Source of the DNA: Amphritea atlantica
GTDB taxonomy: Bacteria; Pseudomonadota; Gammaproteobacteria; Pseudomonadales; Balneatricaceae
Length of the DNA: 64,000 bases
Direction of reading: 5' to 3'
Assembly (NCBI GenBank): GCA_024397875.1
Contig: CP073344.1
Span: 735,001 to 799,000 of the forward strand
This document shows, in pieces, positions 5,941 through 25,913 of this stretch. The notes below the pieces were generated by a model. The model saw only the letters and a program-made list of their open reading frames with translations. It searched no databases and had not been told where the DNA came from. Position 1 is the first letter of the stretch. The number at the start of each line of letters is the position of its first letter. A program made the position numbers and the translations under genes.

Positions 5941-6048
5941 AGTGAAACAGCTAAGCCCGAACATTATCCTCCATTCCCCTAGAGACCCCCTTATAACGCT
6001 TGTATACTAGCCGCAATTTTGTATCAGGCTCACCATGGGTTCACTATT

Positions 6049-10537: not shown

Positions 10538-10987
10538 ATGTCTGTACATGAAGCAAAAATAAACTGGCAGCGAAACCTCCACCTTTCAGATCCCAGTACT
10601 TACTCGCGTAATCACCAGGTCAGTCTGAATGGCAATCAGCAACTTAATGTCTCTGCCTCAGAGGAATTTAAAGGTGATCCTGGTTGTGCGGATCCTGAAC
10701 AGATGTTGGTGAGCGCAGTCTCCAGCTGCCATATGCTGTTTTTTTTAGCGATTGCAGAGTTTCAGGGATTTTATGTTGAGTCATATGAAGACTCCCCTAA
10801 GGGATACCTTGAAAAGAACGCCAAAGGCGGCATGGAAATTACCCGCATCGTCCTTTCTCCCAGCGTGGTATTCGGAGGTGATAAACAGCCTGATCAGCAA
10901 ACAATGTCTAAAATTCATGCGAATGCACATAAAAATTGTTTTATCAGGAATTCTGTTACGGCCAGTGTTGAGATCAATCATTCTTAA
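10538..10987 (+). CDS. OsmC family peroxiredoxin-like protein
   Basis: 149 residues with the two family cysteines, Cys64 in VSSCHMLFFLAIAE and Cys134 in AHKNCFIRNS, which reduce organic hydroperoxides in OsmC/Ohr proteins. The sequence belongs to the OsmC-like side group rather than classical Ohr. Twenty-five bases separate it from the crotonase-fold gene, with which it is probably co-transcribed. Confidence 0.87.
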   Translation: MSVHEAKINWQRNLHLSDPSTYSRNHQVSLNGNQQLNVSASEEFKGDPGCADPEQMLVSAVSSCHMLFFLAIAEFQGFYVESYEDSPKGYLEKNAKGGMEITRIVLSPSVVFGGDKQPDQQTMSKIHANAHKNCFIRNSVTASVEINHS

Positions 10988-11012
10988 CTGTTGATGTTTT
11001 GTGAGGGTTTCT

Positions 11013-11813
11013 ATGAGTACTAATCAGTCAAACGAGAGTATTTTGCTGCGCAGCGATCAGAACGGTGCCGTTTATCTCTCTTTAAACCGGCCGGATAAAT
11101 TAAATACCTTGTCCGAAGCGATGCTGACTTTACTGCAAAGTGAATTAGACAATATCGCCGCCGATCCCACCGTACAGTGTGTCGTCCTGAGTGCTGAGGG
11201 ACGTGGATTTTGTGCCGGGCATGATTTGCAAGAGATGCGCAGTAATCCGACGCATAGCTACTATCAGGAACTATTTCGTCGTTGCGGTAATGTCATGCAG
11301 AGCATCGTTAATCTGCCGGTACCGGTCATTGCCAGGGTGAGTGGTATAGCCGCTGCTGCAGGCTGTCAACTGGTCGCCAGCTGTGATCTGGTGATCGCTG
11401 CCAGGTCGGCCCGGTTCGCAGTGCCGGGCATCAATGTGGGTTTGTTCTGTTCAACCCCGGCAGTCGCATTGTCACGCAATATCTCACCTAAGCGGGCATT
11501 CGACCTGCTGGTGACTGGCGATATTATTGATGCCGATACTGCGCTGGAATGGGGGCTGATCAGCACTGTGGTTGACGATACGGAGCTGGATGACGCAGTT
11601 GCGGAAAAAGTGGCGAAAATCCTTAGTAAGAGTCCTTCTGCTGTTCGGTTTGGTAAATCCATGTTCAATCCACAGAGACAGATGTCGCTCTCCGACGCCT
11701 ACGAATTTGCCGGCAATATTATGGCCGATAATATGATGAGCCCTGACGCAGGCGAAGGTATAGATGCTTTTCTTGCCAAGCGAGCGCCCATCTGGGAAAA
11801 GCCGGTTCGTTAA
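11013..11813 (+). CDS. ECHDC3-type enoyl-CoA hydratase family protein
   Basis: 266-residue crotonase-fold protein. The frame opens at GTG 11001, but ATG 11013 has GAGG six bases upstream and is preferred. The oxyanion-hole segments (GHDLQEM and IAAAAGCQLVASCDL) are present. The two catalytic glutamates of true hydratases are not: their positions hold Gln119 and Gly139. The stretch AAGCQLVASCD...NVGLFCSTP closely follows ECHDC3 proteins, which share this loss. It is therefore unlikely to be a standard enoyl-CoA hydratase or DmdD. It lies between osmC and an acyl-CoA ligase. Confidence 0.85.
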   Translation: MSTNQSNESILLRSDQNGAVYLSLNRPDKLNTLSEAMLTLLQSELDNIAADPTVQCVVLSAEGRGFCAGHDLQEMRSNPTHSYYQELFRRCGNVMQSIVNLPVPVIARVSGIAAAAGCQLVASCDLVIAARSARFAVPGINVGLFCSTPAVALSRNISPKRAFDLLVTGDIIDADTALEWGLISTVVDDTELDDAVAEKVAKILSKSPSAVRFGKSMFNPQRQMSLSDAYEFAGNIMADNMMSPDAGEGIDAFLAKRAPIWEKPVR

Positions 11814-11976
11814 GGTTTTTCATTTCAGGATAGCCCGGTTGATTCTTTAGTTTCACAGGCTTTCAACGAATTTTTGAATAGATACTGACGCCATCAGCCA
11901 AATTCTACTTGTACCAGGTAAATACTTAACTTGAAGATAAGTAGCTGATTAGTCATAAAATAAGAGTGGTAATGAA

Positions 11977-13617
11977 ATGACCGAGTTATGTGCTTTTAAT
12001 CAGGCGATGGATAAAACAACCGCTAATTATGTGGCGCTGTCGCCACTCAGCTTCATCAGGCGGGCCGCTGCTGTATATCCGGGCAGATCTGCTGTCATAT
12101 ACGACGATAAAACCTATACCTGGCGCCAAACCTATGGGCGATGCTGCCAGCTAGCTTCCCTGTTGCAGAAATTTGGTATATCCAGAGGAGATACTGTATC
12201 AGTCATGCTGCCAAATATTCCTGCGATGTATGAGGCGCATTTTGGTGTGCCCATGGTGGGGGCCGTGTTGAACGCAATCAATATTCGCCTGGATGCAGAA
12301 GCGATTGGCTTCATTCTTAATCATAGTCGCACACGGCTTTTGCTGGTGGATTCTGAGTATGCGGATGTCATTGAAAAAGCCCTTTCTCTGGTGGAAGGAC
12401 CTGCACCTATTGTCATCAACGTTTCCGACCCTGGCTATGGCGAAGGGCGGTTTATCGGCGATCTTGAATATGAAGCATTATTGGCTGAACAGCCAGAAGA
12501 CTTGGAGTGGGAACTGCCGGCAGATGAGTGGGATGCGATTGCGCTGGGATATACCTCCGGCACAACCGGTAACCCCAAAGGCGTGGTAACTCACCATCGC
12601 GGTGCTTATCTGAATGCGGTAAGCAACACACTTTCATGGAGCTTGCCATCAAAGGTGGTGTATCTGTGGACCCTGCCAATGTTTCATTGTAATGGCTGGT
12701 GCTTTCCCTGGACGCTGGCTGCGATCGGTGGAACCAGCGTCTGCTTGCGTAAAGTTGATCCGGAAAGAATTCATCAACTCATGAGACAGCATCATGTCAC
12801 TCATTACTGTGGTGCTCCTATAGTACATTCGATGATTGCCGATGCTGCGGTAACTCAGGAAACCACGATCGATCACAAGGTCTATGGGCTGATTGCAGGT
12901 GCTGCGCCGCCAGCTTCGGTTCTGGAACGGATGGAGCGACTTGGATTTGAACTGACTCATGTCTATGGTCTTACCGAGACATATGGTCCCGCTTCGGTAT
13001 GTGTTAAGCAGGATGAATGGGCCGAGTGCACACTCGAAGAGCAGGTGGTGCTTAACGGCCGGCAGGGGGTAAGCTATCCGCTGCAGGAGGAGATCACGGT
13101 GTTAGATCCCGAGACAATGCAGCCGGTACCGGCCGATGGGACAACTGTTGGTGAAATAATGTTCCGGGGCAATATTGTTATGAAGGGATATCTCCATAAC
13201 GAGGCAGCGACCCAGGAGGCATTTGCCGACGGATGGTTCCATACCGGTGATTTAGCGGTAGTGCATTCTGATGGCTACATCAAAATTACCGATCGTTCCA
13301 AAGATGTCATCATTTCGGGCGGTGAAAATATATCCTCACTGGAAGTTGAGGATATCATCCAGCGTCACCCTGAAGTTGAACTTGCCGCTGTTGTCGCTAT
13401 GCCGGATGAGAAGTGGGGCGAAGTGCCTGCGGCGTTTGTACAACTACGTCCGGGCAGCGAGCTAAGTGAAGACGCTATAATTGATTTCTGCCGCAGTAAT
13501 ATGAGTCGTTTCAAAGCGCCTAAGAGGATTGTTCTTGGTAGCCTGCCAACAACGTCAACCGGTAAAATTCAGAAATTTGCATTGCGTCAGCTACTGATAC
13601 CTGAAGCGTGTAATTAA
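11977..13617 (+). CDS. Acyl-CoA synthetase (AMP-forming, DmdB-like family)
   Basis: 546 residues of the ANL superfamily. P-loop YTSGTTGNPKG at 192-202; the adenylate motif YGLTETYGP; TGDL hinge; catalytic Lys530 in STGKIQK. LNAINIRLDA is typical of the medium-chain / methylmercaptopropionate-CoA ligase (DmdB) group, but that group also contains ligases for ordinary medium-chain acids. A second in-frame ATG at 12007 is possible. It follows the ECHDC3-like gene by 163 bases. No DmdC-type dehydrogenase is present, so a DMSP role is only suggestive. Confidence 0.85.
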   Translation: MTELCAFNQAMDKTTANYVALSPLSFIRRAAAVYPGRSAVIYDDKTYTWRQTYGRCCQLASLLQKFGISRGDTVSVMLPNIPAMYEAHFGVPMVGAVLNAINIRLDAEAIGFILNHSRTRLLLVDSEYADVIEKALSLVEGPAPIVINVSDPGYGEGRFIGDLEYEALLAEQPEDLEWELPADEWDAIALGYTSGTTGNPKGVVTHHRGAYLNAVSNTLSWSLPSKVVYLWTLPMFHCNGWCFPWTLAAIGGTSVCLRKVDPERIHQLMRQHHVTHYCGAPIVHSMIADAAVTQETTIDHKVYGLIAGAAPPASVLERMERLGFELTHVYGLTETYGPASVCVKQDEWAECTLEEQVVLNGRQGVSYPLQEEITVLDPETMQPVPADGTTVGEIMFRGNIVMKGYLHNEAATQEAFADGWFHTGDLAVVHSDGYIKITDRSKDVIISGGENISSLEVEDIIQRHPEVELAAVVAMPDEKWGEVPAAFVQLRPGSELSEDAIIDFCRSNMSRFKAPKRIVLGSLPTTSTGKIQKFALRQLLIPEACN

Positions 13618-13703
13618 CAATAGCGGGGGCGGCGAGTTGTTGCATAGCTGTCGGTAAAAGATGGTCATGGACGAGATAAGCTACTATAGTTAGCAGCCTG
13701 TTA

Positions 13704-13722
13704 AGGGTTCCTGCGGAACCCT
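13704..13722 (+). terminator. Hairpin between acyl-CoA ligase and lysR
   Basis: AGGGTTCC-TGC-GGAACCCT, a perfect eight-base stem, with a weaker outer AGCC/GGCT pairing at 13694-13732. It lacks a T tract, so it may be a Rho-assisted terminator or a regulatory structure just before the LysR gene. Confidence 0.5.
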
Positions 13723-13758
13723 GTTAATGGCTCCTGATTTTTCCAAAGGGTAGACGCT

Positions 13759-14694
13759 ATGTCACGACTCCCCCCTATGATAGCCCTCTCATATTTTGAG
13801 GTTGCCAGCCGAACCAAAAGTTTCGCTAAGGCTGCTCAGGAGCTTAATGTTACCCCGGCGGCAATCAGTCACCAGATCAAGGCGCTGGAAGCTTATCTGG
13901 GCGTCGAATTGTTTGTTCGCCACCATCGTCGGGTCAGCCTGACCCCTGCCGCACGTGCAGCGTTGCCAGAGTTGCATGAAGGCTTCAAAATATTGCAACA
14001 AGCCGTAGACAATATCCGTCTCTTTAGCGAAGAGCGGAGTGTCGTTACCGTGTGTGCAGAACCCTTGTTCGCCACGAAATGGATCGTGCCACGCTTGCAT
14101 CGTTTTTATGCTTGCTGCCCTGAAGCTGAAGTGCGATTACAGGCCAGCCTGCATACCGTAGATAAGTGTCGTAATAGTGAGTTTGAAGGCTCGCAACTAA
14201 AGCGTGCGGGGATCGATGTGTCTGTACGACTGGGTTATGGCGATTATAAGGATCTTGCACCACAGCGCTTAATGAGTCTTGATTTAGTTCCCATGTCTAC
14301 GCCAGAGCTTGTTGCCAGTCTTGAGAGTGTAGAATCATTACCCAAACAAACATTGTTATGGGACAGCACACTGTCACGTTTTAAGGAGTCCTGCGGCTGG
14401 CATGAGTGGTTTTTACAGCAGCAAGCCGAACACACTGATTCCCTGCGAGAGCTTCGTTTTGGTAACGGCCTGCTGACACTTGAAGCGGCCCTGTCTGGAC
14501 AAGGCTTTTTGCTTGGTAGTAAAGAGCTGCTGCAGGCAGAGCTGGCTTCAGAAAAACTGCAAGTAGCGATCGATCGCCCGATGCACTGTGACCAGGCATA
14601 TTATGTGGTGAGTGCGGGCTTAAATAGTGAACGGGACATTGCCCGGCAGTTTCGAGAGTGGCTGGTGGAGGAGGCGGGTTCGTCTGAGAACTGA
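13759..14694 (+). CDS. LysR family regulator, GcvA-like
   Basis: 311 residues: N-terminal winged helix-turn-helix (AAQELNVTPAAISHQIKALEAYLGVELFVR split over about 25-55) and a type 2 periplasmic-binding-like effector domain. The MxRLPPMxALxxFE start and RFKESCGWHEW segment are typical of the GcvA subgroup, which often controls one-carbon or amino-acid genes. It reads toward the methyltransferase gene, 519 bases downstream, and may regulate that cluster; this is inferred from position. Confidence 0.88.
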   Translation: MSRLPPMIALSYFEVASRTKSFAKAAQELNVTPAAISHQIKALEAYLGVELFVRHHRRVSLTPAARAALPELHEGFKILQQAVDNIRLFSEERSVVTVCAEPLFATKWIVPRLHRFYACCPEAEVRLQASLHTVDKCRNSEFEGSQLKRAGIDVSVRLGYGDYKDLAPQRLMSLDLVPMSTPELVASLESVESLPKQTLLWDSTLSRFKESCGWHEWFLQQQAEHTDSLRELRFGNGLLTLEAALSGQGFLLGSKELLQAELASEKLQVAIDRPMHCDQAYYVVSAGLNSERDIARQFREWLVEEAGSSEN

Positions 14695-15213
14695 GTTTCC
14701 CCTTTTTACACGTGAATGTTCGCCTGTCCGCAACGGACAGGCCTGAATTAAATCTTCATTTCTCCATTACCGCACCCCGATCTCTCAACCAGTGCAGAAC
14801 AGATATTCAAATGTGCTTGTTGTATGGATTCTGCCCGGATCAGGATCTGATGATGTCTGTAGTGCAGGTGGTTAATCAGGAGTAAACCTCTATTAAAGCC
14901 GGAGTCTCACCGGTTCTGAAAATGGCCTCATCCGTTGACAGACTGACTGATCGTTCAGCCCCCCTTTTTTTGATTTGATAGCGGTTTATCGACAACGATA
15001 TTAATGGTTTTTCTGCCGGTATAACGCGGTATTGTCCGCGATAGACCAAATGGACTAATGCGGACCGAAAACAAGACCGTTTATCCATTTTTGCGCCACC
15101 TGTTTAGGCCCTTCTATCTGAGAATTTCTCATATTATTTACGCTGATCAAACGATTTCAGTGCTGTGCAATTTCGCCGTATCGGACGGGATTGAACAAAA
15201 TGAGGACTAGTGA
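14695..15213 (+). other. Intergenic region upstream of the first DmdA-like gene
   Basis: No gene is credible. A nine-base hairpin GCCTGTCCG-CAA-CGGACAGGC lies at 14722-14742 just after lysR and could end its transcript. Bases 15041-15213 are duplicated upstream of the second DmdA-like gene and are described separately. Confidence 0.6.
15041..15213 (+). promoter_or_regulatory. Duplicated leader/promoter of DmdA-like gene 1
   Basis: These 173 bases match 21093-21266 closely, with the best conserved blocks TTTAGGCCCTTCTATCTGAG and CTGATCAAACGATTT. Because the similarity starts about 170 bases before the start codon and covers the whole leader, both copies should share the same control. No riboswitch family was recognised. 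Confidence 0.65.
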
Positions 15214-16362
15214 ATGGCTACACAACAAAAAGAAGAATTTGGCTTTGGAACACAAATTCGCAAATCTCCTTACTTCGATGCAACCGTGCGCTGGGGCGCT
15301 ACCGGTTTCTCGGTCTATAACCATATGTATATCCCGCGTGATTTTGGCAATCCCGAGCAGAATTTCTGGAACCTGGTCAACGATGCCATTCTGTGTGATG
15401 TTGCGGTTGAACGCCAGGTAGAAATTACCGGTCCTGATGCGGCTCAGTTCGCGCAACTACTGACACCCCGCGACTTGTCCAAGTGTGCGGTAGGGCAGTG
15501 CAAATATGTGCTGATCACCAATGCTGAGGGCGGCATTCTGAACGATCCGATCCTGCTGCGTCTTGAAGAAAACCGTTTCTGGATCTCGCTGGCAGACAGC
15601 GATATTTTGCTGTGGGCACAAGGCGTTGCGATTAACTCGGGTCTGGATGTTCAAATCCGCGAACCGGATGTTTCACCGTTGCAGCTGCAGGGGCCGAAGT
15701 CCGGTGAAATTATGAAAGCGTTGTTTGGCGACAGCATCACCGATCTGAAGTATTACTGGCTACGTGAATATGACCTGGACGGTATTCCTCTGATCATATC
15801 CCGGACCGGCTGGTCAAGCGAACTGGGCTATGAGCTTTATCTGCAGGATGGCTCGAAGGGTGATGAGCTGTGGGAAAAGATCATGGCAGCGGGTGCTCCG
15901 TTCGGTCTTCAGCCAGGTCACACATCGTCAATTCGTCGCATTGAGGGCGGTATGCTGTCCTACCATGCGGATATGGATATCAATACCAATCCGTATGAAC
16001 TGGGCCTTGATCGTCTGGTAGAGCTGGATATCGAAGCCGACTTTATCGGTAAAGCTGCTCTCAAACGTATCCGTGACGAGGGTGTCTCACGCAAACAGGT
16101 TGGCCTGGTGATTGATGGTCCGGCACTGACAGGACCTAACACCCGGTGCTGGATGCTGGAACAAGAGGGTGAGCAGGTAGGCAAGGTGACATCAGCGGTG
16201 TTCTCTCCGCGTCTGGAGCAAAACATTGCACTGGCCATGGTTAGCGCAGAGTTTGCGGCCCTTGGTACCACGTTCGACGTTGAGTTGCCTAGCGGAAAAA
16301 CAACCGCCACCGTTGTCGAAATGCCGTTCTTTGACCCGAAAAAGGCAATTGCGGCGACCTGA
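15214..16362 (+). CDS. DmdA/GcvT-family THF-dependent methyltransferase, copy 1
   Basis: 382 residues of the aminomethyltransferase fold. It follows the DMSP demethylase DmdA pattern: IRKSPYF, FSVYNHM, AVERQVEITGPDA, LLTPRDLSK, VGQCKY, NDPILLRLEENRFWISLADSD, DVSPLQLQGPKS. DmdA moves a methyl group from dimethylsulfoniopropionate to THF. Close homologues outside verified DmdA clades exist, so the onium substrate (DMSP, a betaine, or another) is open. It is followed by MetF-like, FolD and BCCT genes. Copy 2 at 21267 differs at 11 residues by my count. It is not a glycine-cleavage GcvT: gcvH and gcvP are absent. Confidence 0.85.
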   Translation: MATQQKEEFGFGTQIRKSPYFDATVRWGATGFSVYNHMYIPRDFGNPEQNFWNLVNDAILCDVAVERQVEITGPDAAQFAQLLTPRDLSKCAVGQCKYVLITNAEGGILNDPILLRLEENRFWISLADSDILLWAQGVAINSGLDVQIREPDVSPLQLQGPKSGEIMKALFGDSITDLKYYWLREYDLDGIPLIISRTGWSSELGYELYLQDGSKGDELWEKIMAAGAPFGLQPGHTSSIRRIEGGMLSYHADMDINTNPYELGLDRLVELDIEADFIGKAALKRIRDEGVSRKQVGLVIDGPALTGPNTRCWMLEQEGEQVGKVTSAVFSPRLEQNIALAMVSAEFAALGTTFDVELPSGKTTATVVEMPFFDPKKAIAAT

Positions 16363-16399
16363 TTTCTACAAACTGAAAAGCTCAAAAAATGAGCGCTTT

Positions 16400-16476
16400 C
16401 TGCAGACTATAGTTGACGATCAGATGTTGATTTGATCTATAGCTGAGAGCAAAAACTGCTTTTAAACAGTCTGCAG
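16400..16476 (+). repeat. Inverted repeat downstream of DmdA-like copy 1
   Basis: CTGCAGACT (16400-16408) and AGTCTGCAG (16468-16476) are perfect nine-base arms 59 bases apart. A smaller hairpin AAAGCTCA/TGAGCGCTTT lies just before it. It could be an RNA-processing or termination structure between the first methyltransferase and the MetF-like gene. Confidence 0.5.
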
Positions 16477-16535
16477 ATGCTCATTTATAATAAATAACAG
16501 GGTTTGACCACCCACCAGAACATAAGGGCGATTTT

Positions 16536-17465
16536 ATGGGGCTGTTATCTTTTCTTCACAAATCAACTGATGCCAGCACAGAGGTTCAGACATCCAGCTT
16601 GCTGGAGAATTTTTTAAGTGGCTATTCGATTGAGGTCATGCCTCATACCGCAGACAAAGTGGAGAGTTTCCGCGATATTCTGCCGACCGGTACACGCGTC
16701 TATATTGCGCATATCGATGGTACACCCATTGAGGATATGGTCCGCACTGCACGGCGTCTGGCTGATGAGGGTTTTCAGGTCATGCCGCATTTCCCCGCTC
16801 GCTTAATTACCGGGCATAAGGAGCTCGCTGAATGGATCGCCCGCTATCAGGGCGAGGCAGGGGTAAATCAGGCGCTCCTCCTGGGCGGCGGCCTTAACCG
16901 CCCGGTTGGTGAATTTAAAGATTCTATGCAGATGCTCGAAACGGGGCTCTTCGATGGATTCAAAAATCTGCACATTGCCGGTCACCCCGAAGGCAACCGC
17001 GATATAGATCCTGATGGTTCAGATAGAATGGTGATGCAAGCCATGAAGTGGAAAAAGGCTTTTTTTGAGCGGACGGATGCGCGCGTGGCGATTACTACTC
17101 AGTTCTGCTTTGAGTCTGCTCCGGTTATTGCATGGGCTGACAGGCTGGCAGCGGAAGGGGTTGATCTGCCTATCCATATTGGGCTGGCGGGGCCGGCGAA
17201 GCTGCACACCCTGATCAAGTATGCGCTGTCATGCGGTGTAGGTCCGAGCATGCGGGTACTGCAGCGCCGGGCAAAGGATGTGACGAAGTTGCTTCTGCCC
17301 TATGAACCAACCGAATTACTGACCGAGCTTGCCGCTCATAAGGAGCGCCATCCGGATTTCGGTATTGAGCAGGTGCATTTCTTCCCGCTTGGCGGGATAA
17401 AGAACAATGCAGTCTGGGTCTCTGAAAATGGGGGCAGTGCGGGCCGGCCAGCTTCAGCAGATTAA
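16536..17465 (+). CDS. Divergent methylenetetrahydrofolate reductase (MetF-like)
   Basis: 309 residues, TIM-barrel of the MetF family but divergent. SIEVMPHT near residue 33 is the counterpart of the catalytic-Glu SFEFFPP segment of MetF, and HIAGHPEGN and TQFCFESAP are FAD/substrate segments. Its context argues that it runs in the oxidative direction: methyl-THF made by the DmdA-like enzymes to methylene-THF, for the FolD gene next to it. AAGGGCG lies just before the ATG. A hairpin GCCCCT/AGGGGGC (17492-17508) separates it from folD. Confidence 0.82.
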   Translation: MGLLSFLHKSTDASTEVQTSSLLENFLSGYSIEVMPHTADKVESFRDILPTGTRVYIAHIDGTPIEDMVRTARRLADEGFQVMPHFPARLITGHKELAEWIARYQGEAGVNQALLLGGGLNRPVGEFKDSMQMLETGLFDGFKNLHIAGHPEGNRDIDPDGSDRMVMQAMKWKKAFFERTDARVAITTQFCFESAPVIAWADRLAAEGVDLPIHIGLAGPAKLHTLIKYALSCGVGPSMRVLQRRAKDVTKLLLPYEPTELLTELAAHKERHPDFGIEQVHFFPLGGIKNNAVWVSENGGSAGRPASAD

Positions 17466-17592
17466 CATTGTTCAATAGAGATAAGTAGTCAGCCCCTGAA
17501 GAGGGGGCACACTACATACATAACAGGAACAAATGCGCCACTTTACCGGTTTTCAATTGATTTCCGGTGTGCGCGAGACGAGAAGAAAACAC

Positions 17593-18486
17593 ATGACTGC
17601 ACAGATCATTGATGGCAAGAATTTTGCCGTCGCATTACGTGAAAAGGTAGCCGAGCATACTTCATACCTGAAAGAAAAACATAACATTACCCCTGGTCTG
17701 GCGGTGGTGCTGGTAGGTGAGGATCCGGCATCTCAGGTCTATGTACGTTCAAAGGGAAAGCAGACTATTGAAGCCGGTATGAACTCTTATGAATACAAGC
17801 TATCAGCAGATACATCTGAAACCGAGCTGCTCACACTGATTAATCAGCTTAATGCAGACACGAATGTTCATGGCATTCTCGTTCAGCTGCCTCTGCCCGA
17901 ACACCTTGATGAAGCATTAGTGATTAATGCGATCGATCCCGCCAAAGATGTGGATGGATTTCATATTTCTAATGCCGGTCTGCTAGCCACAGGGCAGAAA
18001 GCGATGGTGCCCTGTACTCCTTTGGGTTGTCTGATGATGCTTCGCGAGTATTGTGGTAGCTTGTCGGGTCTGAATGCGGTAGTGGTAGGGCGGTCGAACA
18101 TCGTCGGCAAACCGATGGCGCAATTGTTATTGAAAGAGAGCTGTACAGTGACAATTGCGCATTCGCGTACGCGAAATTTGCCGGAGCTGGTGGGTGGCGC
18201 AGATATTGTTGTCGCTGCTGTAGGACAACCTCTGTTTATTAAGGGCGAATGGATCAAGCCTGGCGCGACAGTGATCGATGTGGGTATCAATCGCATTGAA
18301 CAGGGCGACGGCATGACCCGGCTTGTTGGCGATGTGGATTTCGAAACAGCCAGAGAGGTCGCCGGAGCGATCACCCCTGTCCCTGGAGGTGTTGGCCCGA
18401 TGACGATTGCTTGTTTACTGGCAAATACAGTGACCGCGTGTTGTCGTTCATACTCTCTTCCAGAGCCTCAGGGGCTTACGGTCTGA
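17593..18486 (+). CDS. folD: Bifunctional methylene-THF dehydrogenase / methenyl-THF cyclohydrolase
   Basis: 297 residues from ATG 17593 (MTAQIIDGK). The frame is open to 17533, but that extension is unlike FolD. Tyr50 and Lys54 (YVRSKGK) are the catalytic pair; [20 protein letters not shown] and [10 protein letters not shown] are family signatures. It converts 5,10-methylene-THF to 10-formyl-THF. Here it is placed to process methyl-derived one-carbon units and may be a catabolic paralogue of a housekeeping folD elsewhere. Confidence 0.95.
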
Positions 18487-19213
18487 TACTCGTTAAACTG
18501 GAGTAGGGCGGTTGTTAGTATCCGGAGGCTCGGGTTTCCGAACGACTAAGTTAACCTGGCTCTATGAAGGTCACAATGAGGGATGGGGTCTGCCCCTAGC
18601 GGTAAACCTCATCCCGGCTGGTATGCCAGAGCATACTTGCATCAGTTATTATGTCGAATAAAAATTTTTTATTATTATGCATCAGACCGTCAGTAATGAA
18701 AGTCATTAAAATATGTTGATAATTAATCTTTAATCTATTCGTTACAGCGTAGATGTTTGATTTTTTAAAAGCTTTTGGAAGTGTTTCCTCTTAAAGGTGC
18801 GAATCTGTTTAGGTTTTGTTAAAAAAGTTTAAAAAATAAACTGAGATTGGTTTCTATTGTTTGTTATATAACGGTCCCGCTTATATTCAATTTATTATAG
18901 ACTTTATAATCTTTAACTTCTCAATTATCAATGGCTTTGTTTGTAATCCTCTCAGAAAAGTCATCTGCGTAAGAACCTTGCTGCTTATACAAAACAGCCC
19001 TCATAAAGCTAAGCAATCTGGTTAGAAAATGTCGTTTTACAGCAGCGAGTGGCTTGCCTACGATAAAAGCCACAATAGACAGTGACATTCAGAGTCCTGA
19101 TATTGCTAAAAATTTTTAACGGATGAATTGTGTTATTTCTAATTCTTTTTGGATGCGGAATACTGCAAATTCTTACCGCCGACTGCATAATAAAAACAAT
19201 CTGGATTATTAAA
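18487..19213 (+). other. Long AT-rich intergenic region before the BCCT gene
   Basis: About 730 bases without a credible gene, with strong A/T richness from 18650 to 19100. Presumably it holds the BCCT promoter, which suggests that osmolyte uptake is controlled separately from folD. I recognise no riboswitch, repeat or small RNA gene. Confidence 0.5.
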
Positions 19214-20788
19214 ATGAATGAGCAAGTTCGAAGCAAACCTTTGCCCGGGCAATATACGACTGACTATAAAGCGGGGCAGGATAACGTTCAGGTTCTGGGG
19301 ATGGATATCCATAACCCGGTGTTCACAACCAGTGCACTGGCGATTATCACCTTTATCGTACTGGCACTAATGTTTCCGGCAGATGCAAAAACAATACTGG
19401 AAGGTGCGCGGGTATGGTCTACCACAACCTTTGACTGGTTATTTATGATCAGCGGTAACATCTTTGTTATATTCTGTATCTCTCTGATTCTGTTACCTGT
19501 TGGCAGGATCAGGCTTGGCGGGAAAACAGCGAAACCTGATTTCAGCAGAATGTCATGGTTTTCAATGTTATTTGCCGCAGGTATGGGCATAGGCCTGATG
19601 TTCTGGAGTGTCGCAGAGCCGGTGGCATACTATACCGACTGGTGGGGTACGCCATTAAGTGCGGCAGCTAATACTCCGGAAGCGGCCTCCATGGCCATGG
19701 GCGCGACGATGTTTCACTGGGGATTGCATCCCTGGGCGATCTACGGCGTAGTGGCACTGGCACTGGGCTTTTTTACCTACAATAAAGGCCTGCCGCTGAC
19801 TATTCGTTCGGCATTTTTCCCGCTACTGGGAGAACGTACCTGGGGGCCTATTGGCCATGTCATCGATATCGTAGCAGTCCTGGCAACGATTTTCGGTCTG
19901 GCAACGTCTCTGGGATTGGGGGCGTCTCAAGCTTCCAGCGGACTTAACTTCTTGTTCGGAGTGGAAAACTCCATCTCTACCCAGATCGCCATTATTGTAG
20001 TCGTCACTGGGATTGCGATTTTCTCGGTGATGCGTGGCCTTGACGGCGGCGTTAAGCTCCTGAGTAACATCAACATGGGGATTGCTGCGGCTCTGCTTCT
20101 GTTTGTGATTATTGCGGGTTCAGTGACCGTCTTTTTCGGAAATTTCCTGGGCACACTGGGCAGCTATGCGGAAAATATTCTTCCCCTGAGTAACTGGATA
20201 GGACGCGAGGATGAGAAGTTTTACACCGGCTGGACCGTTTTCTACTGGGCATGGTGGGTCTCCTGGTCACCGTTCGTGGGTATGTTTATTGCCCGTATCT
20301 CTAGGGGCCGGACTGTACGTGAGTTTATGACGGCTGTGCTGCTGGTTCCGACGCTGGTATCTGCTGTGTGGATGTCTGCATTCGGTGCTCAGGCGCTGGA
20401 TCAGGTGCAGGGTGGTATTGGTCAGCTGAGTAACGGCCTGGGTGATGTATCACTGGCAATGTTCCACATGCTTGAGAATCTGCCACTGACACAGATCACC
20501 TCAATACTGGCTATCGTACTGGTTCTGGTGTTCTTCATCACATCGTCTGACTCCGGCTCTCTGGTCATCGACTCCATCACTGCCGGTGGTAAAGTGGATG
20601 CGCCAACCCCCCAGCGTATCTTCTGGGCTGTGCTGCAGGGACTGATCGCGGCAGTGTTGCTGTATGGTGGTGGCTCAGAGGCGCTTAAAGCCCTGCAAGC
20701 GGGATCCATTGCGACCGGTTTACCCTTTACCGCAATTCTGCTGCTGATGTGTTTCAGCATTTACAAGGGACTGAAGTCTGAAGTTTGA
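19214..20788 (+). CDS. BCCT family osmolyte transporter
   Basis: 524 residues from ATG 19214 (an upstream extension to 19130 is possible but hydrophobic and unlike the family). About twelve membrane segments. GMGIGLMFWSVAEP and WAWWVSWSPFVGMFIARISRGRTVREF are hallmark motifs of betaine/carnitine/choline transporters; the tryptophan-rich segment forms the onium-binding cage. Flanked by two DmdA-like demethylases, it most likely imports their methylated substrate. Long charged N- and C-terminal osmosensing tails are absent, which fits a catabolic rather than osmoregulatory carrier. Confidence 0.93.
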   Translation: MNEQVRSKPLPGQYTTDYKAGQDNVQVLGMDIHNPVFTTSALAIITFIVLALMFPADAKTILEGARVWSTTTFDWLFMISGNIFVIFCISLILLPVGRIRLGGKTAKPDFSRMSWFSMLFAAGMGIGLMFWSVAEPVAYYTDWWGTPLSAAANTPEAASMAMGATMFHWGLHPWAIYGVVALALGFFTYNKGLPLTIRSAFFPLLGERTWGPIGHVIDIVAVLATIFGLATSLGLGASQASSGLNFLFGVENSISTQIAIIVVVTGIAIFSVMRGLDGGVKLLSNINMGIAAALLLFVIIAGSVTVFFGNFLGTLGSYAENILPLSNWIGREDEKFYTGWTVFYWAWWVSWSPFVGMFIARISRGRTVREFMTAVLLVPTLVSAVWMSAFGAQALDQVQGGIGQLSNGLGDVSLAMFHMLENLPLTQITSILAIVLVLVFFITSSDSGSLVIDSITAGGKVDAPTPQRIFWAVLQGLIAAVLLYGGGSEALKALQAGSIATGLPFTAILLLMCFSIYKGLKSEV

Positions 20789-20832
20789 ATGCTGAGTCAG
20801 TCTTCTGATATAAAGACAGCCTTGTGCATCCT

Positions 20833-20853
20833 GCTCCCCCATCGCCGGGGAGC
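20833..20853 (+). terminator. Hairpin after BCCT gene
   Basis: GCTCCCC pairs with GGGGAGC around a seven-base loop, 45 bases after the stop. No T run follows, so it may be Rho-assisted. The remaining DNA up to 21092 has no credible gene; a short hydrophobic open frame at 20880-21110 lacks a ribosome site and runs into the duplicated leader. Confidence 0.5.
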
Positions 20854-21092
20854 GACCAGGCCTGAATCCAGATAAGCGGATGAGTGCTCCTTCGGGCAAC
20901 GTCAGCGTAAAGGGTTCAGGCTTTATTCTTTCTCCAGATTTTCTTCTGTATTCATACCTGAGCTACCGCAGTGTCATCTTCATCTTATTATTGATTAGCC
21001 GGTGGGAGGCTACCGCACTTTCTGCTGCCAGTGCCGACTGCTTCGTGCCGCTCGCATGCTTTTTTTTCCTGGATTCAGCCCTGCGCTCAAGC

Positions 21093-21266
21093 ATAGACCA
21101 AACAGACTAATACGAGCTGAAAAATAAGACCGTTTTTCCATTTTTTCACCATCTCTTTAGGCCCTTCTATCTGAGAATTCCTCATATCATTTACCCTGAT
21201 CAAACGATTTTAGCACTGTGCAGTTTTACCGTATTGGACGGGACTGCAGTCGATGAGGACTGGAAA
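21093..21266 (+). promoter_or_regulatory. Duplicated leader/promoter of DmdA-like gene 2
   Basis: Matches 15041-15213 through to the start codon, including TTTAGGCCCTTCTATCTGAG and CTGATCAAACGATTT. The similarity breaks just upstream of ATAGACCAAA, which marks one edge of the duplicated segment. Confidence 0.65.
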
Positions 21267-22415
21267 ATGGCTACACAACAAAAAGAAGAATTTGGCTTTG
21301 GAACGCAGATTCGTAAATCCCCTTACTTTGATGCAACCGTGCGCTGGGGTGCTACCGGTTTCTCGGTGTATAACCATATGTATATCCCGCGTGATTTTGG
21401 CAATCCCGAGCAGAATTTCTGGAACCTGGTCAACGATGCCATCCTGTGTGATGTTGCGGTTGAACGTCAGGTAGAAATTACCGGTCCTGATGCAGCACAG
21501 TTTGCACAACTACTGACACCCCGCGATCTGTCCAAGTGTGCGGTAGGGCAGTGCAAATATGTGCTGATTACCAATGCTGAGGGCGGAATTCTGAACGATC
21601 CGATCCTGCTGCGTCTTGAAGAAAACCGTTTCTGGATCTCGCTGGCAGACAGCGATATTTTGCTGTGGGCGCAAGGCGTCGCGATTAACTCGGGTCTGGA
21701 TGTTGAAATTCGTGAACCGGATGTTTCACCGCTGCAGCTGCAGGGGCCGAAGTCCGGTGAAATCATGAAAGCGTTGTTTGGCGACGGCATCACCGATCTG
21801 AAGTATTACTGGCTACGTGAATATGATCTGGACGGTATCCCTCTGATCGTATCCCGCACCGGCTGGTCAAGCGAACTGGGCTATGAGCTGTATCTGCAGG
21901 ATGGCTCGAAGGGTGATGAGCTGTGGGAAAAGATTATGGCAGCGGGTGCTCCGTTCGGTCTTCAGCCAGGTCACACATCGTCAATTCGTCGTATCGAGGG
22001 CGGTATGCTGTCCTACCATGCCGATATGGATATCAATACCAATCCGTATGAACTGGGCCTTGATCGTCTGGTAGAGCTGGATATCGAAGCCGACTTTATC
22101 GGTAAAGCTGCTCTCAAACGTATCCGTGACGAGGGTGTCTCACGCAAACAGGTTGGCCTGGTGATTGATGGTCCGGCACTGACAGGGCCTAACACCCGGT
22201 GCTGGATGCTGGAAAAAGAGGGAGAGCAGGTGGGTAAAGTGACCTCTGCGGTGTTCTCTCCACGTCTGGAACAAAACATTGCGCTGGCTATGGTCAGCTC
22301 AGCGTTTGCAGACTTTGGCACAACGTTTGAAGTTGAGCTGCCGAGCGGCAAAACGACAGCCACCGTTGTCGAAATGCCATTCTTTGATCCTAAAAAGACC
22401 ATTGCGGCGATCTGA
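21267..22415 (+). CDS. DmdA/GcvT-family THF-dependent methyltransferase, copy 2
   Basis: 382 residues from ATG 21267, equivalent to copy 1 (the frame opens 11 codons earlier at 21234). Differences from copy 1 are at residues 147, 174, 195, 317, 345, 346, 349, 350, 355, 378 and 382: conservative in the core and clustered in the last 70 residues. All DmdA-like blocks are retained, so both copies should be active on the same or a closely related onium compound. It lies between the BCCT gene and purU. Confidence 0.85.
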   Translation: MATQQKEEFGFGTQIRKSPYFDATVRWGATGFSVYNHMYIPRDFGNPEQNFWNLVNDAILCDVAVERQVEITGPDAAQFAQLLTPRDLSKCAVGQCKYVLITNAEGGILNDPILLRLEENRFWISLADSDILLWAQGVAINSGLDVEIREPDVSPLQLQGPKSGEIMKALFGDGITDLKYYWLREYDLDGIPLIVSRTGWSSELGYELYLQDGSKGDELWEKIMAAGAPFGLQPGHTSSIRRIEGGMLSYHADMDINTNPYELGLDRLVELDIEADFIGKAALKRIRDEGVSRKQVGLVIDGPALTGPNTRCWMLEKEGEQVGKVTSAVFSPRLEQNIALAMVSSAFADFGTTFEVELPSGKTTATVVEMPFFDPKKTIAAI

Positions 22416-22575
22416 TTCTGCAGGTTGAGCCATGAAGGCCTCGCTGCGTTTCACTGCACAGAGATGACCGGCTGCGTCCACTTCCAGGCTTTTCAGGTAG
22501 TGAATGCATCCGGATATCCGGGTCATCCCGGTATTAATAAATCAGCCAGCTGACTATGCGGCAAGACGGGAAGTT

Positions 22576-22608
22576 CAGGAGAGGATCATCCGAAACGGAT
22601 CTCTCCTG
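22576..22608 (+). terminator. Strong hairpin between DmdA-like copy 2 and purU
   Basis: CAGGAGAG (22576-22583) pairs with CTCTCCTG (22601-22608), and ATCCG-AAA-CGGAT forms the top of the stem, with a four-base GATC bulge on one side. There is no T run. It could be a terminator or attenuator setting the level of purU transcript. Confidence 0.5.
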
Positions 22609-22665
22609 CAACCTCATCTCCTGCAACGTCAGTCTGGCGAATAATAAAATTTAAGGACCTGTAGA

Positions 22666-23538
22666 ATGACTACAAATACACCAACCTATATCCTTACCGG
22701 CAGTTCTCAAACCAAGCTGGGTGTGCTTGATCTGATAATCAGCAGTCTGTATCGCAATGACTGTTATGCATACGAGATGCATACTTTTGATGATGCCGAT
22801 ACTGACCGTTTTTTCTTCCGTGTCGAGTTCAATTACCGGGGTGACGGTGAATTTTCGGAAGAGAATCTGCGTAACCAGCTTGCCGACCGGGCTGAAGCTT
22901 TCGAAGTCGAATGGGAACTGCGTGATCTGGCGGTTCCTGCGAAGGTAGTGCTGCTGGTATCCAAGTATGATCACTGCCTGCAGGATCTGCTCCATCGTCA
23001 TAGTACCGGTGCACTTAATATCGAGATTCCGGCGATCATCTCCAACCATCCTGATCTGAAAAAACAGGCTGACTGGTACAATATCCCGTACTACCACCTG
23101 CCGGTTACTGCGGAAACCAAAGAGCAGCAGGAAGCGCAGATGTGGGAGATCATTCAGGAATCCGGAGCCGATCTCGTTGTGCTGGCGCGCTATATGCAAG
23201 TACTGTCTGAAGATATGTGCAAGAAGCTGCATGGGCGGGCTATCAATATCCACCATTCGCTGCTGCCTGGCTTCAAAGGTGCCAAACCTTACCATCAGGC
23301 CTATGAGAAAGGCGTTAAACTGGTCGGGGCTACAGCACACTACGTTAGCGAACATCTGGACGAAGGACCAATCATCACTCAGGGTGTGGAACCGGTGGAT
23401 CACACCTACACACCTGAGCGTCTGGTGGCAAAAGGACGTGATACCGAACGGGTCACGCTGGCAAAGGCAATTAAGCTGCATGTAGAGCATCGCTGCTTTC
23501 TGAACGGCAACAAAACAGTTGTCTTCCCGGGACATTGA
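22666..23538 (+). CDS. purU: Formyltetrahydrofolate deformylase
   Basis: 290 residues: N-terminal ACT-type domain (about 1-90) and a formyltransferase-fold hydrolase domain. The catalytic triad is visible as Asn194 and His196 (INIHHSLLPGFKGAKPYHQA) and Asp232 (LDEGPII). It hydrolyses 10-formyl-THF to formate and THF. After FolD it regenerates THF for the demethylases and ends the one-carbon route. AAGGA precedes the ATG. A terminator follows. Confidence 0.95.
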   Translation: MTTNTPTYILTGSSQTKLGVLDLIISSLYRNDCYAYEMHTFDDADTDRFFFRVEFNYRGDGEFSEENLRNQLADRAEAFEVEWELRDLAVPAKVVLLVSKYDHCLQDLLHRHSTGALNIEIPAIISNHPDLKKQADWYNIPYYHLPVTAETKEQQEAQMWEIIQESGADLVVLARYMQVLSEDMCKKLHGRAINIHHSLLPGFKGAKPYHQAYEKGVKLVGATAHYVSEHLDEGPIITQGVEPVDHTYTPERLVAKGRDTERVTLAKAIKLHVEHRCFLNGNKTVVFPGH

Positions 23539-23572
23539 CCATCGTTCCAGGGGGATGAGCCATTAAAGTTGT

Positions 23573-23609
23573 AAGCGGATCAGTCCGGTAAACCGGTGAT
23601 CCGCTTTTA
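23573..23609 (+). terminator. Terminator after purU
   Basis: AAGCGGATC...GATCCGCTT with an inner CCGGT/ACCGG stem, followed by a short T run, 35 bases after the purU stop. Confidence 0.8.
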
Positions 23610-23717
23610 CTCAATTAGAGCGGCAGAGGCGTTGACCGGTTTAACTATATTGGCTTCCGGTATCTTCGATACTTTGCAGACAGATTTACTACCTTGATGC
23701 ATGAAGATGCATTTTCT

Positions 23718-23743
23718 GGCCCCGGTGGGGCCTTTTTTTTTTA
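23718..23743 (+). terminator. Second strong terminator before lrp-type gene
   Basis: GGCCCC-GGT-GGGGCC followed by nine or more T residues: a textbook intrinsic terminator. Together with the previous one it insulates the regulator gene from the one-carbon cluster. Apart from these, 23539-23904 holds only the regulator's promoter region. Confidence 0.85.
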
Positions 23744-23904
23744 TCTTTTCGCTGCGTTGACGCAATTTTCAAATCAGATAGATTAGCCTTTGTTTGACAG
23801 GATTCATGCGCCAGTTATTCTTAGCACATATAACATTTGATCTGGCTCATTCAGGTGGTTAGACTCGAATCTAGGGGATTCGGATTAAATGTGTAGTTAA
23901 CAAT

Positions 23905-24405
23905 ATGAAAAAAGTCATATTAGATGCGGTGGATATCCGTATTCTGAGTGCCGTGCAGCAGCATGGACAGATCAGCAAATCCAGACTTTCGGAATTGGTC
24001 AGCCTTTCGCCAACGCCATGCTGGATTCGGTTGGACAAACTTAAAAAGGCGGGCCTCATAAAGGGGTATCGGGGCGATATTGCCGTTGATAAAATTCTCG
24101 ACCTGACGAAGGTTTTTGTAACTGTTTCATTAAAGGCACATAACCGGTCAAATTTTGAGCGTTTTGAAAAACGTATTCTGAGTGTTGATGAAATCGTAGA
24201 ATGCAGTGCGACCGGCGGTGGCTCTGACTATGTAATGAAAGTCATCAGCTATACACTGTCAGATTTTCAACATTTAATGGAACAGTTACTCGATGAAGAG
24301 ATAGGAATTGACCGCTATGTGATTTACGTTGTCACGCGGGAGGTTAAATCAACGTCACTTAGTTTATCGAAACTGATGGATAGCAAAAGAGCCTCCAGTG
24401 AATAG
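23905..24405 (+). CDS. Lrp/AsnC family transcriptional regulator
   Basis: 166 residues: an N-terminal helix-turn-helix (LDAVDIRILSAVQQHGQIS to the recognition helix about residue 45) and a C-terminal RAM/ACT-type ligand domain with CSATGGGSDYVMKV. Such regulators sense amino acids or related metabolites. Its place next to the one-carbon cluster makes it a candidate regulator of the demethylase/BCCT genes; no operator was identified. Confidence 0.9.
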   Translation: MKKVILDAVDIRILSAVQQHGQISKSRLSELVSLSPTPCWIRLDKLKKAGLIKGYRGDIAVDKILDLTKVFVTVSLKAHNRSNFERFEKRILSVDEIVECSATGGGSDYVMKVISYTLSDFQHLMEQLLDEEIGIDRYVIYVVTREVKSTSLSLSKLMDSKRASSE

Positions 24406-24426
24406 AACGTCTCTGAATCGGTTATC

Positions 24427-24451
24427 AAGCCCGGCTATAGTAGCCGGGCTT
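24427..24451. terminator. Bidirectional terminator
   Basis: AAGCCCGGCTA-TAG-TAGCCGGGCTT followed by TTT on the plus strand. It separates the convergent lrp-type and ccoG genes. Confidence 0.85.
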
Positions 24452-24554
24452 TTTAGTTTCAGGCCTGGGATGTGGGGCTGCACTGTAACAGCCGGTCACC
24501 AGTCATGCCCTGTTATCAGATCAGAAAGGCTCTGCTAAAGAAAAGTCGTTCCGA

Positions 24555-25913
24555 CTAAATCAGTTTCGACAGGAAGGTTGTCTCTTTTGTCGCAGATACT
24601 CCGTTGCCGGTGAAGACAAATGCCAGTCTGGCATGTGGTTGTTCGATACTGCTGCCGCAAACACGGTAGGGTAACCAGGCTGAGTTGTTATCGCTGAGTT
24701 TAATGATTTCAGGCCCGTTGAGGGTAAACTGCGGGTTTCCTGACAGGGACACCTTAATTAACTCCTGATCACGGGCAAATACCTCTACTTTGATACGGTA
24801 GTTATTGCAGACCGTTTTTTGATCCAGTTGGGTAAACAGCGCTGTGCGATCACGGCGCACTTCAACCAGCAAGCTTTTCGTATCAGTAAAGCCGTAGATA
24901 ACCGCCGAGATTGCGCAGAGTGTTACCGCCGCATAACCGGCCAGTCTCGGGCGCAGGAAGAGAGATTGTTTGCCTTCCAGTTGCCGTTCGGATGCGAAAC
25001 GTATCAACCCCCGTGGACGGTCAAGCTTATCCATTACGTTGTCACAGGCATCAATGCAGGCTGCGCAGTCGATACAGGCAGCCTGCAGGCCGTTACGAAT
25101 ATCGATACCGGTAGGGCAGACCTGAACACAGATGCCGCAATCAACACAGTCGCCGCTGTTTTCATCGGCGTTACGGCGGTTTGCCCGGGGTTCACCGCGT
25201 TTGGCGTCGTAGCTGACGGTGAGCGTATTATTATCAAACATAACACTCTGAAAACGTGAGTAGGGACAGGCGTGCAGACAGATTTTTTCCCGCACAAGAC
25301 CCGCATTGGCATAGGTCAGCGCCGCCATAATCGTCAGCCAGCCAATCAGGGTTGCGGACATTTCAAGATTGTAACCATCCGCCACAATCTCCCGGATAGG
25401 GACGAAATATCCGGTGAAGGTCGCTGCCGTAAGAACCGCCAGGAAAATCCATAGAAGATGTTTGACTACCCGACGTAACAGTCGTGTGCCTCTAAGGGGC
25501 AGATGATCAGTCTTAGACCGTTCACTTGCACGACCTTCAGTCAGCTGTTCTATACGAATAAACAGCCAGGTCCAGACACTCTGTGGGCAGGCAAAACCAC
25601 ACCAGACTCGTCCCCAGGCCACCGCCATAAAAAACAGCAGCGTTGCCCCGGCAATCATCAATCCGGCCAGCAACGGCAGATCATGCCAGGACAGTGCGCT
25701 GCCAAAGAGGGTAATGCGGCGCTGTTCGAAGGAGAAAAACAGAAACGGCTGACCATCAACCTGAACCCAGGCGAGACCGAAGAAAAGCGCGATCATTGGC
25801 CAGGTGGTCAGACGTCTGAGGTTTTGAAAACGTCCCTCTGTAAGTCGAACGTGAAACTTACCATCGGTTGCAAAGGGAGGCGTTGAATCTTGTATAACAG
25901 GAATTTTTTGCAT
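24555..25913 (-). CDS. ccoG: Cytochrome oxidase accessory protein CcoG (RdxA/FixG family)
   Basis: 452 residues with about five membrane segments and two 4Fe-4S clusters in CVDCGICVQVCPTG and CIDCAACIDACDNV, plus the WCGFACPQ motif between membrane segments and a C-terminal Ig-like FixG domain. CcoG takes part in copper reduction for assembly of cbb3 oxidase. No ccoNOPQ or ccoIS genes are within view, so this copy is detached from its usual operon. It diverges from a MocR-type gene. Confidence 0.94.
   Translation of the reverse strand: MQKIPVIQDSTPPFATDGKFHVRLTEGRFQNLRRLTTWPMIALFFGLAWVQVDGQPFLFFSFEQRRITLFGSALSWHDLPLLAGLMIAGATLLFFMAVAWGRVWCGFACPQSVWTWLFIRIEQLTEGRASERSKTDHLPLRGTRLLRRVVKHLLWIFLAVLTAATFTGYFVPIREIVADGYNLEMSATLIGWLTIMAALTYANAGLVREKICLHACPYSRFQSVMFDNNTLTVSYDAKRGEPRANRRNADENSGDCVDCGICVQVCPTGIDIRNGLQAACIDCAACIDACDNVMDKLDRPRGLIRFASERQLEGKQSLFLRPRLAGYAAVTLCAISAVIYGFTDTKSLLVEVRRDRTALFTQLDQKTVCNNYRIKVEVFARDQELIKVSLSGNPQFTLNGPEIIKLSDNNSAWLPYRVCGSSIEQPHARLAFVFTGNGVSATKETTFLSKLI

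Follow-up and report, generated by a model that had tools for sequence, protein, structure and literature searches.

Foremost among the described systems that resemble the gene island considered here are the dimethylsulfoniopropionate (DMSP) demethylases (DmdA) of SAR92 bacteria. Those of strains HTCC2207, H921, and H231 restored methanethiol (MeSH) production in a dmdA mutant of Ruegeria pomeroyi DSS-3 to 53.8, 34.3, and 37.2% of the wild type, respectively (PMC10746254). According to the same source, these enzymes share 73.8–86.5% identity with one another, 37.9–40.2% with DSS-3 DmdA, and 34.6–39.0% with Pelagibacter ubique DmdA, make up a branch peripheral to clades A–E, and are encoded in dmdA-acuH-dmdB-dmdC clusters, with DMSP inducing all four genes in HTCC2207 (PMC10746254). 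A second system is that of Sphingobium SYK-6, in which S6MTHFR, a methylenetetrahydrofolate reductase (MTHFR), is reported in a meeting abstract to oxidise 5-methyl-tetrahydrofolate (5-methyl-THF) beside the THF-dependent O-demethylase LigM (PMC12585457). Here, we analysed a 64,000-nucleotide stretch of Amphritea atlantica DNA (contig CP073344.1, positions 735,001 to 799,000; host genome of 4.55 Mb in two contigs), hereafter the window, which encodes two DmdA-like methyltransferases within what, judged by sequence, is probably a SAR92-type DMSP (sulfonium) demethylation island. A literature search, mostly of titles and abstracts, found none that describes this gene set.

Like the SAR92 cluster, the island has a methyltransferase that appears to belong to the same protein clade and that is encoded near a crotonase and an acyl-CoA ligase. 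It differs by the addition of an MTHFR-FolD-PurU arm, a BCCT carrier, and a second methyltransferase copy, and by having an OsmC gene where the two loci that we relate below to SAR92 (L193 and L195) have a gene for a CoA-binding protein; the published dmdC is seen in neither of these two. With the LigM-S6MTHFR pair, the island shares the coupling of a THF-dependent demethylase to an MTHFR of one family that runs, or in the window is predicted to run, in reverse, though the demethylase and substrate in Sphingobium are different, and PurU and the CoA arm are the window's own. The metF2-folD-purU genes of chloromethane degraders carry out the same three-step oxidation of methyl-THF to formate, but there, unlike in the window, the methyl group is delivered by corrinoid methyltransferases.

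Family of the methyltransferases

The two methyltransferase genes, in window coordinates as throughout, are the following.

15214–16362, plus strand: predicted SAR92-type DmdA, copy 1 (GCV_T and GCV_T_C domains; assigned by NF009133 score, tree, motif, and fold)
21267–22415, plus strand: predicted SAR92-type DmdA, copy 2 (GCV_T and GCV_T_C domains; 97% identity with copy 1)

On the NF009133 model (DMSP demethylase), copies 1 and 2 score 382.0 and 385.1 bits, which is below the curated cut-off of 410, and the window enzyme is 37–39% identical to the classical DmdAs of R. pomeroyi and P. ubique. Shared with classical DmdA (clades A–E) are the GCV_T/GCV_T_C fold, an Asn at the position of a GcvT Asp, and the GWS..G.E motif, whereas within this motif classical DmdA has KQG and the window clade SEL (83 of 87 frames). 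Our tree of 63 proteins comprised 27 rows of the window clade (the two window copies and 25 others), 14 of classical DmdA, five GcvT-like, and 17 other DmdA-like. In it, the window clade and classical DmdA formed separate clades, each with 100/99 support, the GcvT-like rows stood apart, and the 17 further rows fell in neither of the two clades. The nearest named relatives of the window methyltransferases come from an Oceanospirillales metagenome-assembled genome (97%) and from Amphritea (94%). Moreover, an AlphaFold2 model with a mean predicted local distance difference test score of 89.3 gave P. ubique DmdA as the best fold match by E-value, at a template modelling (TM) score of 0.92, with dimethylglycine dehydrogenases at 0.86–0.89 and T-proteins at 0.80–0.86.

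Other arrangements of DmdA-like genes were also seen among the loci that we collected. Locus L035 has a classical-type and a SAR92-type DmdA within 11 kb (at 1110 and 7983), and L207 has two classical-type DmdA genes in tandem (at 6891 and 8150). In L177–L182 and L204, members of a further DmdA-like clade, 36–45% identical, are encoded between a MetF-like gene and the same type of ligase, with no OsmC or crotonase match adjoining; this clade is possibly a third type of demethylase.

Probable correspondence with the SAR92 enzymes

An order-wide search of 390 genomes returned clade members from one genus with genomes of 2.0–2.9 Mb, including those of L193 (genome G692, 2.6 Mb) and L195 (genome G855, 2.9 Mb). 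Protein P0121, which is 99% identical to that of L195, bears the name Porticoccaceae, the family within which SAR92 lies. By BLASTP, L193 and L195 are 73.77% identical to each other and 40.17 and 37.85% identical, respectively, to R. pomeroyi DmdA, with L195 giving 39.04% to P. ubique DmdA, and these identities meet four of the six published SAR92 bounds to 0.1%. Window copy 1 shares 73.5 and 74.3% identity with L193 and L195, both of which nest inside the window clade in the tree; a constraint placing them with the 14 classical rows, a grouping chosen after the first tree, cost 115.6 log units. In addition, the motif GWSSELGYE is identical in both window copies and the SAR92-type proteins. 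The L193 and L195 loci each encode DmdA, a CoA-binding protein, a crotonase, and a ligase, and in G855 a dddD-like gene is divergent from genes for BCCT, Fe-ADH, aldehyde dehydrogenase, IclR, and LysR, which is the arrangement reported for H921 and H231 (PMC10746254). On this basis, L193 and L195 are probably two of the published SAR92 DmdAs. Because the clade appears in this way to hold SAR92 DmdAs with published activity on DMSP, this compound would be the most likely substrate of the window methyltransferases, and the proposal of an earlier note on this DNA, that they may serve a new pathway for another betaine or sulfonium, is the less likely of the two.

The phenotype of the R. pomeroyi dmdA knockout was considered as evidence on the clade and then dropped. 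Though strain SZCCDBG043 (L059) first suggested otherwise, the genome that is probably DSS-3 (G862) has no clade copy, so that the phenotype of its mutant does not speak against the role of the clade.

Gene content of the island

The other features of the island and its edges are listed here.

8706–10184, minus strand: dihydrolipoyl-dehydrogenase-like flavoprotein, divergent from the OsmC gene (NF004939, 550.9 bits, cut-off 435, scanned over 8706–10085)
10538–10987, plus strand: OsmC-family protein, encoded first in the CoA arm (PF02566)
11001–11813, plus strand: crotonase of ECHDC3/PRK08139 type (NF006008, 400.7 bits, cut-off 313)
11977–13617, plus strand: acyl-CoA ligase of PRK08162 type (NF006020, 908.5 bits, cut-off 677)
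13759–14694, plus strand: GcvA-type LysR regulator (NF008352, 239 bits, below the cut-off of 288)
15042–15058, plus strand: palindromic element TAGWCYAAAYRGWCYAA, 17 bp, putative operator 5' of DmdA copy 1 (exact match)
16536–17465, plus strand: MetF-like protein, S6MTHFR relative, predicted 5-methyl-THF oxidase (PDB 7xg9, 6.7e-48)
17533–18486, plus strand: FolD, methylene-THF dehydrogenase/methenyl-THF cyclohydrolase (NF010785, 495.6 bits, cut-off 396)
19130–20788, plus strand: BCCT carrier, with its true start probably at about 19214 (PF02028, 605.6 bits; TIGR00842, above cut-off; NF047988 for betaine BCCT, 537.5 bits, cut-off 650)
21094–21110, plus strand: the same palindromic element, putative operator 5' of DmdA copy 2 (exact match)
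22666–23538, plus strand: PurU, formyl-THF deformylase (TIGR00655, 307.9 bits, cut-off 285.95)
23905–24405, plus strand: Lrp-family regulator (AsnC/Lrp domains; NF008370, 92.5 bits, cut-off 233)

The earlier note had named two DmdA-like methyltransferases, the MetF-like protein, FolD, BCCT, PurU, LysR, and Lrp, all of which are present as open reading frames of matching family, with the LysR and Lrp proteins both scoring under the cut-offs of their best models. Its statement that glycine-cleavage partners are missing agrees with our scan of genes inside and next to the module, which gave neither GcvH nor GcvP. Its description of a complete module is not quite right, since the CoA arm (OsmC, crotonase, and acyl-CoA ligase) and the upstream elements had been overlooked.

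No Pfam or NCBIfam match at 0.001 was found for the MetF-like protein. PDB entry 7xg9 ('5,10-methylenetetrahydrofolate reductase'), its match listed above, is presumably S6MTHFR from Sphingobium, and the next solved MTHFR follows at 0.0018. An S6MTHFR-type protein together with FolD and PurU would make a line from methyl to formate. For transfer of the methyl group to THF, its oxidation to formyl-THF, and the release of formate, as already proposed, family assignments and gene association give good support in gammaproteobacteria and partial support in alphaproteobacteria, the direction and flux being predicted. Halomonadaceae, Aquisalimonas, and six alphaproteobacterial loci lack the MetF-like protein and have instead an MTHFR C-terminal protein (PF12225), mostly with an MTHFR-domain MetF (PF02219), these family names having been checked on locus L055 only; loci of one kind are served by MTHFRs of two different types.

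Beyond the island, window positions 6019–7299 encode leucine-rich repeats and a kinase-like domain, with a weak likeness to a plant-pathogen effector family that is far under the cut-off (80 of 450 bits), and 7627–8295 on the minus strand encode a Spondin-domain protein (145.4 bits, cut-off 40). On the 3' side are CcoG (24555–25913; 426.8 bits, cut-off 316.7) and a NirA/sulfite-reductase-like protein (27560–29257) that scores under all cut-offs.

Conservation of the gene neighbourhood

We compared 79 loci (43 from alphaproteobacteria and 36 from gammaproteobacteria), namely the window and 78 others that were obtained by merging the best 80 of 287 matches. Neighbours were counted within about 10 kb, using thresholds of our own setting and reference proteins from the window, L055, L064, and L088, and the counts take in loci shortened by contig ends and a Ruegeria marina genome that is represented by three contigs. 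Most conserved was Lrp (67 loci), then OsmC (50), the acyl-CoA ligase and the crotonase (47 each, together in 45), FolD (28), an MTHFR of either of the two types (27), and PurU (26). Taken singly, the MetF-like protein was a neighbour in 16 loci, all gammaproteobacterial, the MTHFR C-terminal protein in 15, and classical MetF in 11, while the flavoprotein was found near 13 loci and LysR and BCCT near 12 each. Among the alphaproteobacterial loci, an MTHFR is present in six of 43 and FolD in four of 43. From this recurrence, the clustering of the island is not due to chance, and the OsmC, crotonase, and acyl-CoA ligase genes (10538–13617) belong to it, making the unit larger than first described; the flavoprotein gene is loosely attached. 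In fact, locus L202 has eight genes in line on the same strand, in the order DmdA, MetF-like, FolD, PurU, OsmC, crotonase, acyl-CoA ligase, and Lrp.

The clade was found in eight of 398 genomes of the phylum (E 1e-140), 13 of 390 of the order (at least 65% identity), and 21 of 99 of the family (E 1e-90), one of these last (G061) showing a fragment only. A close ligase orthologue (at least 72%) is present in 12 of the 99 family genomes, 11 of which have the methyltransferase too; ten others have the methyltransferase without the orthologue, and 77 have neither. The OsmC, crotonase, and ligase trio of alphaproteobacteria matches the window trio at only about half of its residues (ligase 51–54%, crotonase 47–50%, OsmC 35–43%), and a diverged trio of this type is also borne by the gammaproteobacterial loci L025, L033, L034, and L070. 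Despite this, the alphaproteobacterial methyltransferases are 79–83% identical to the window's, which implies that the grouping was either retained or formed anew from parts that had diverged.

Upstream element and paired gene copies

The element TAGWCYAAAYRGWCYAA is located 156–172 bp 5' of each DmdA copy, and these are its only two exact matches in the window. With three mismatches allowed, the window has six matches, a number that 11 of 100 shuffles also reach, so that only the exact matches carry weight. Exact copies occur in 24 of 218 loci, several of which are the same place repeated, and an alignment of 22 upstream regions showed conservation across genera. Ahead of each DmdA copy, the palindrome leads into a conserved stretch of about 150 bp. 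The element precedes a PurU-DmdA unit in L021 and L022. Of the two elements in L012, one precedes MetF-like and FolD genes without a DmdA gene. The palindrome is likely a regulator site of the island and may resemble the CTAAT site of GcvA. An Rfam scan of window positions 9800–25000 gave no match up to an E-value of 1.

The two methyltransferase copies differ at 11 of 382 residues and at 67 bases, 54 of which are third positions, and the DNA repeat (15041–16364 and 21093–22417) is 92.5% identical over about 1325 bp, from roughly 170 bp upstream to the gene end. In other loci, the copies are identical (L010), pair within the locus in the tree (L011, L014, and L017), or have no clear placement (L013 and L015), and window copy 2 groups with those of L010 (support 83) and not with window copy 1. 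With both gene positions common to several species, this pattern suggests repeated duplication, or gene conversion between DmdA copies that keep separate neighbours.

Proposed pathway and alternative explanations

In the pathway that we propose, the BCCT carrier would take up DMSP, and either DmdA copy, going by clade membership, would move one DMSP methyl group to THF to give 3-methylmercaptopropionate and 5-methyl-THF. By their families, the S6MTHFR-type MetF-like protein would then oxidise 5-methyl-THF to methylene-THF, FolD would take this to formyl-THF, and PurU would yield formate and THF. Activation of the remaining acid would fall to the acyl-CoA ligase, a possible DmdB equivalent, though it is outside the DmdB family, and the unusual crotonase and OsmC would follow. 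Both units (DmdA-MetF-like-FolD and DmdA-PurU), each with the same palindrome, are probably controlled together by LysR and/or Lrp. The host probably also cleaves DMSP, as a DddD-like gene (G000:C2:299903–302113; L221) has an 861-residue frame with two CoA-transferase matches, making it DddD by architecture only; this gene is divergent from another BCCT gene, so that DMSP uptake need not rely on the carrier of the island.

Several points weigh against this assignment. The SAR92 correspondence is an agreement of numbers among four proteins of that genus, plus a 12-protein comparison, and the bounds of 86.5 and 34.6%, which would belong to the third SAR92 strain, were not recovered in a scan of 239 homologues for its protein. 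The published gene order ends in dmdC, whereas the ligase gene is followed by a sulfatase gene in L193 and a TerB/DnaJ protein gene in L195; likewise, no BCCT match is found beside dddD in G692, whose cluster is otherwise similar. Complementation, moreover, speaks of ability and not of natural substrate. In the window itself, the ligase scores 304.9 of the required 822 bits on NF005426 (3-(methylthio)propionyl-CoA ligase), which places it outside the known family of that activity, and the BCCT carrier has a trimethylamine transporter as its nearest solved relative (478.8 bits), with DddT more distant (197.6), and is near only the 12 loci counted above. Classical DmdA, above the cut-off at 555–695 bits, co-occurs in 16 of 29 clade-carrying genomes (two of six plus 14 of 23) tested with NF009133, these being the host genome and those of 28 of the 78 loci, and the second enzyme may accordingly do something else.

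The crotonase adds to these points. DmdD/AcuH-type hydratases need two glutamates, and in our alignment the window crotonase has Gln and Gly in their place, so that by its residues it is not a hydratase of this kind. The second catalytic position is Gly in each of the 47 module crotonases, and a Gln motif stands at the first in 46 of them, the remaining one not being matched by the pattern; of the three other crotonases aligned, L196 and L211 keep both glutamates and L186 the first only. The same replacements are present in 3myb and human ECHDC3, the closest relatives with solved structures. Furthermore, no acyl-CoA dehydrogenase (DmdC) was recognised among the genes scanned near the module or in the operons, no profile search having been aimed at one; for A. 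atlantica GY6, a survey lists dmdC and four dmdB genes (PMC9327192). As given there, A. atlantica GY6 and Marinobacterium rhizophilum D13-1 produced no detectable MeSH from DMSP (Liu et al., PMC9327192). We dropped this as evidence, since SAR92 H921 and H231 are likewise reported without MeSH from DMSP despite a working DmdA (PMC10746254).

Many of these observations would also fit a natural substrate other than DMSP, namely another sulfonium or betaine, with some activity on DMSP and with the ligase, crotonase, and OsmC degrading a different demethylated acid, which we hold to be rather unlikely. The clade is distinct from classical DmdA, which co-occurs with it as just described, ligases of this type are also encoded next to DmdA-like proteins that are more distant, the module crotonase is without the hydratase glutamates, the operons have no recognised acyl-CoA dehydrogenase (though none was sought by profile), and the carrier is nearest to a trimethylamine transporter. 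Tabrizicola and Nitrincola alkalilacustris are known from non-marine habitats, where DMSP is scarce, and such clade carriers speak for a wider substrate range. Among loci that lack a CoA arm, those inspected (L073, L026, L086, L031, L036, L063, and L084) gave no hint of a substrate, their neighbours being mevalonate-pathway or unrelated genes, with a GcvT-domain oxidase-like protein next to that of L026. Spelled out as a separate onium pathway, a DmdA sister enzyme would prefer a non-DMSP substrate, the ligase, the glutamate-less ECHDC3-type crotonase, and OsmC would handle the acid by undescribed chemistry, and the methyl-to-formate line would be built in, a scheme to which we attach a similarly low likelihood. 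What speaks against another natural substrate is that same-clade SAR92-type proteins, if the identification stands, restore MeSH from DMSP, and that dmdA, acuH, dmdB, and dmdC of HTCC2207 are DMSP-induced (PMC10746254).

Alternatively, the island might mainly harvest methyl groups for C1 supply, much as in Sphingobium, with little use of the carbon and sulfur of the rest of the molecule. An S6MTHFR relative and FolD beside a methyltransferase have the LigM-S6MTHFR pair as precedent (PMC12585457), and Phaeobacter inhibens is described as using DMSP methyl groups by way of dmdA (PMC11306105), but PurU would drain formyl-THF to formate, and the ligase and crotonase are both kept in 45 of the 79 loci, which leaves this an improbable account. 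As it overlaps with DMSP demethylation, the likelihoods that we give do not add up to one.

That the methyltransferases are GcvT-like or biosynthetic enzymes is hardly credible, for although close relatives, where named, are called aminomethyltransferase or glycine cleavage T protein, copy 1 stays under the cut-offs of three GcvT models (189.4 of 300, 166.6 of 235.85, and 137.4 of 459 bits), has only 27% identity with the genome's own GcvT (L006, which is GcvT by three models above cut-off), carries Asn110 where aligned GcvT has the Asp of the ND/DD motif (Asn in 83 of 87 clade frames, the other four not being matched by the pattern), and falls outside the GcvT branch in the phylogeny that the earlier note had called for. 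In GcvT, the Asp at this aligned position is catalytic.

Implications

Amphritea and its relatives have been credited with DMSP degradation chiefly by the lyase DddD. In the survey of Liu et al., dmdA is listed neither for A. atlantica GY6 nor for M. rhizophilum D13-1, and a BLASTp threshold of 50% identity is given (PMC9327192), which the present clade, with some 39% identity to classical DmdA, would not reach; clade proteins are present on a 4.80-Mb A. atlantica contig and in M. rhizophilum DSM 18822. Another source, citing earlier work, has Amphritea using DMSP by demethylation or lysis, and Marinobacterium, Oceanospirillum, and Marinomonas having dmdA to a lesser extent (PMC12596276), which counts against full novelty. 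Standard annotation does not call this clade DmdA, though its SAR92 members appear to have been found functional. In the island, demethylation would be tied to a dedicated line for methyl oxidation, and the crotonase makes for a testable puzzle. If the clade does demethylate DMSP, surveys based on classical DmdA would miss part of the demethylation in Oceanospirillaceae, Halomonadaceae, Marinobacter, Porticoccaceae, and many Rhodobacterales.

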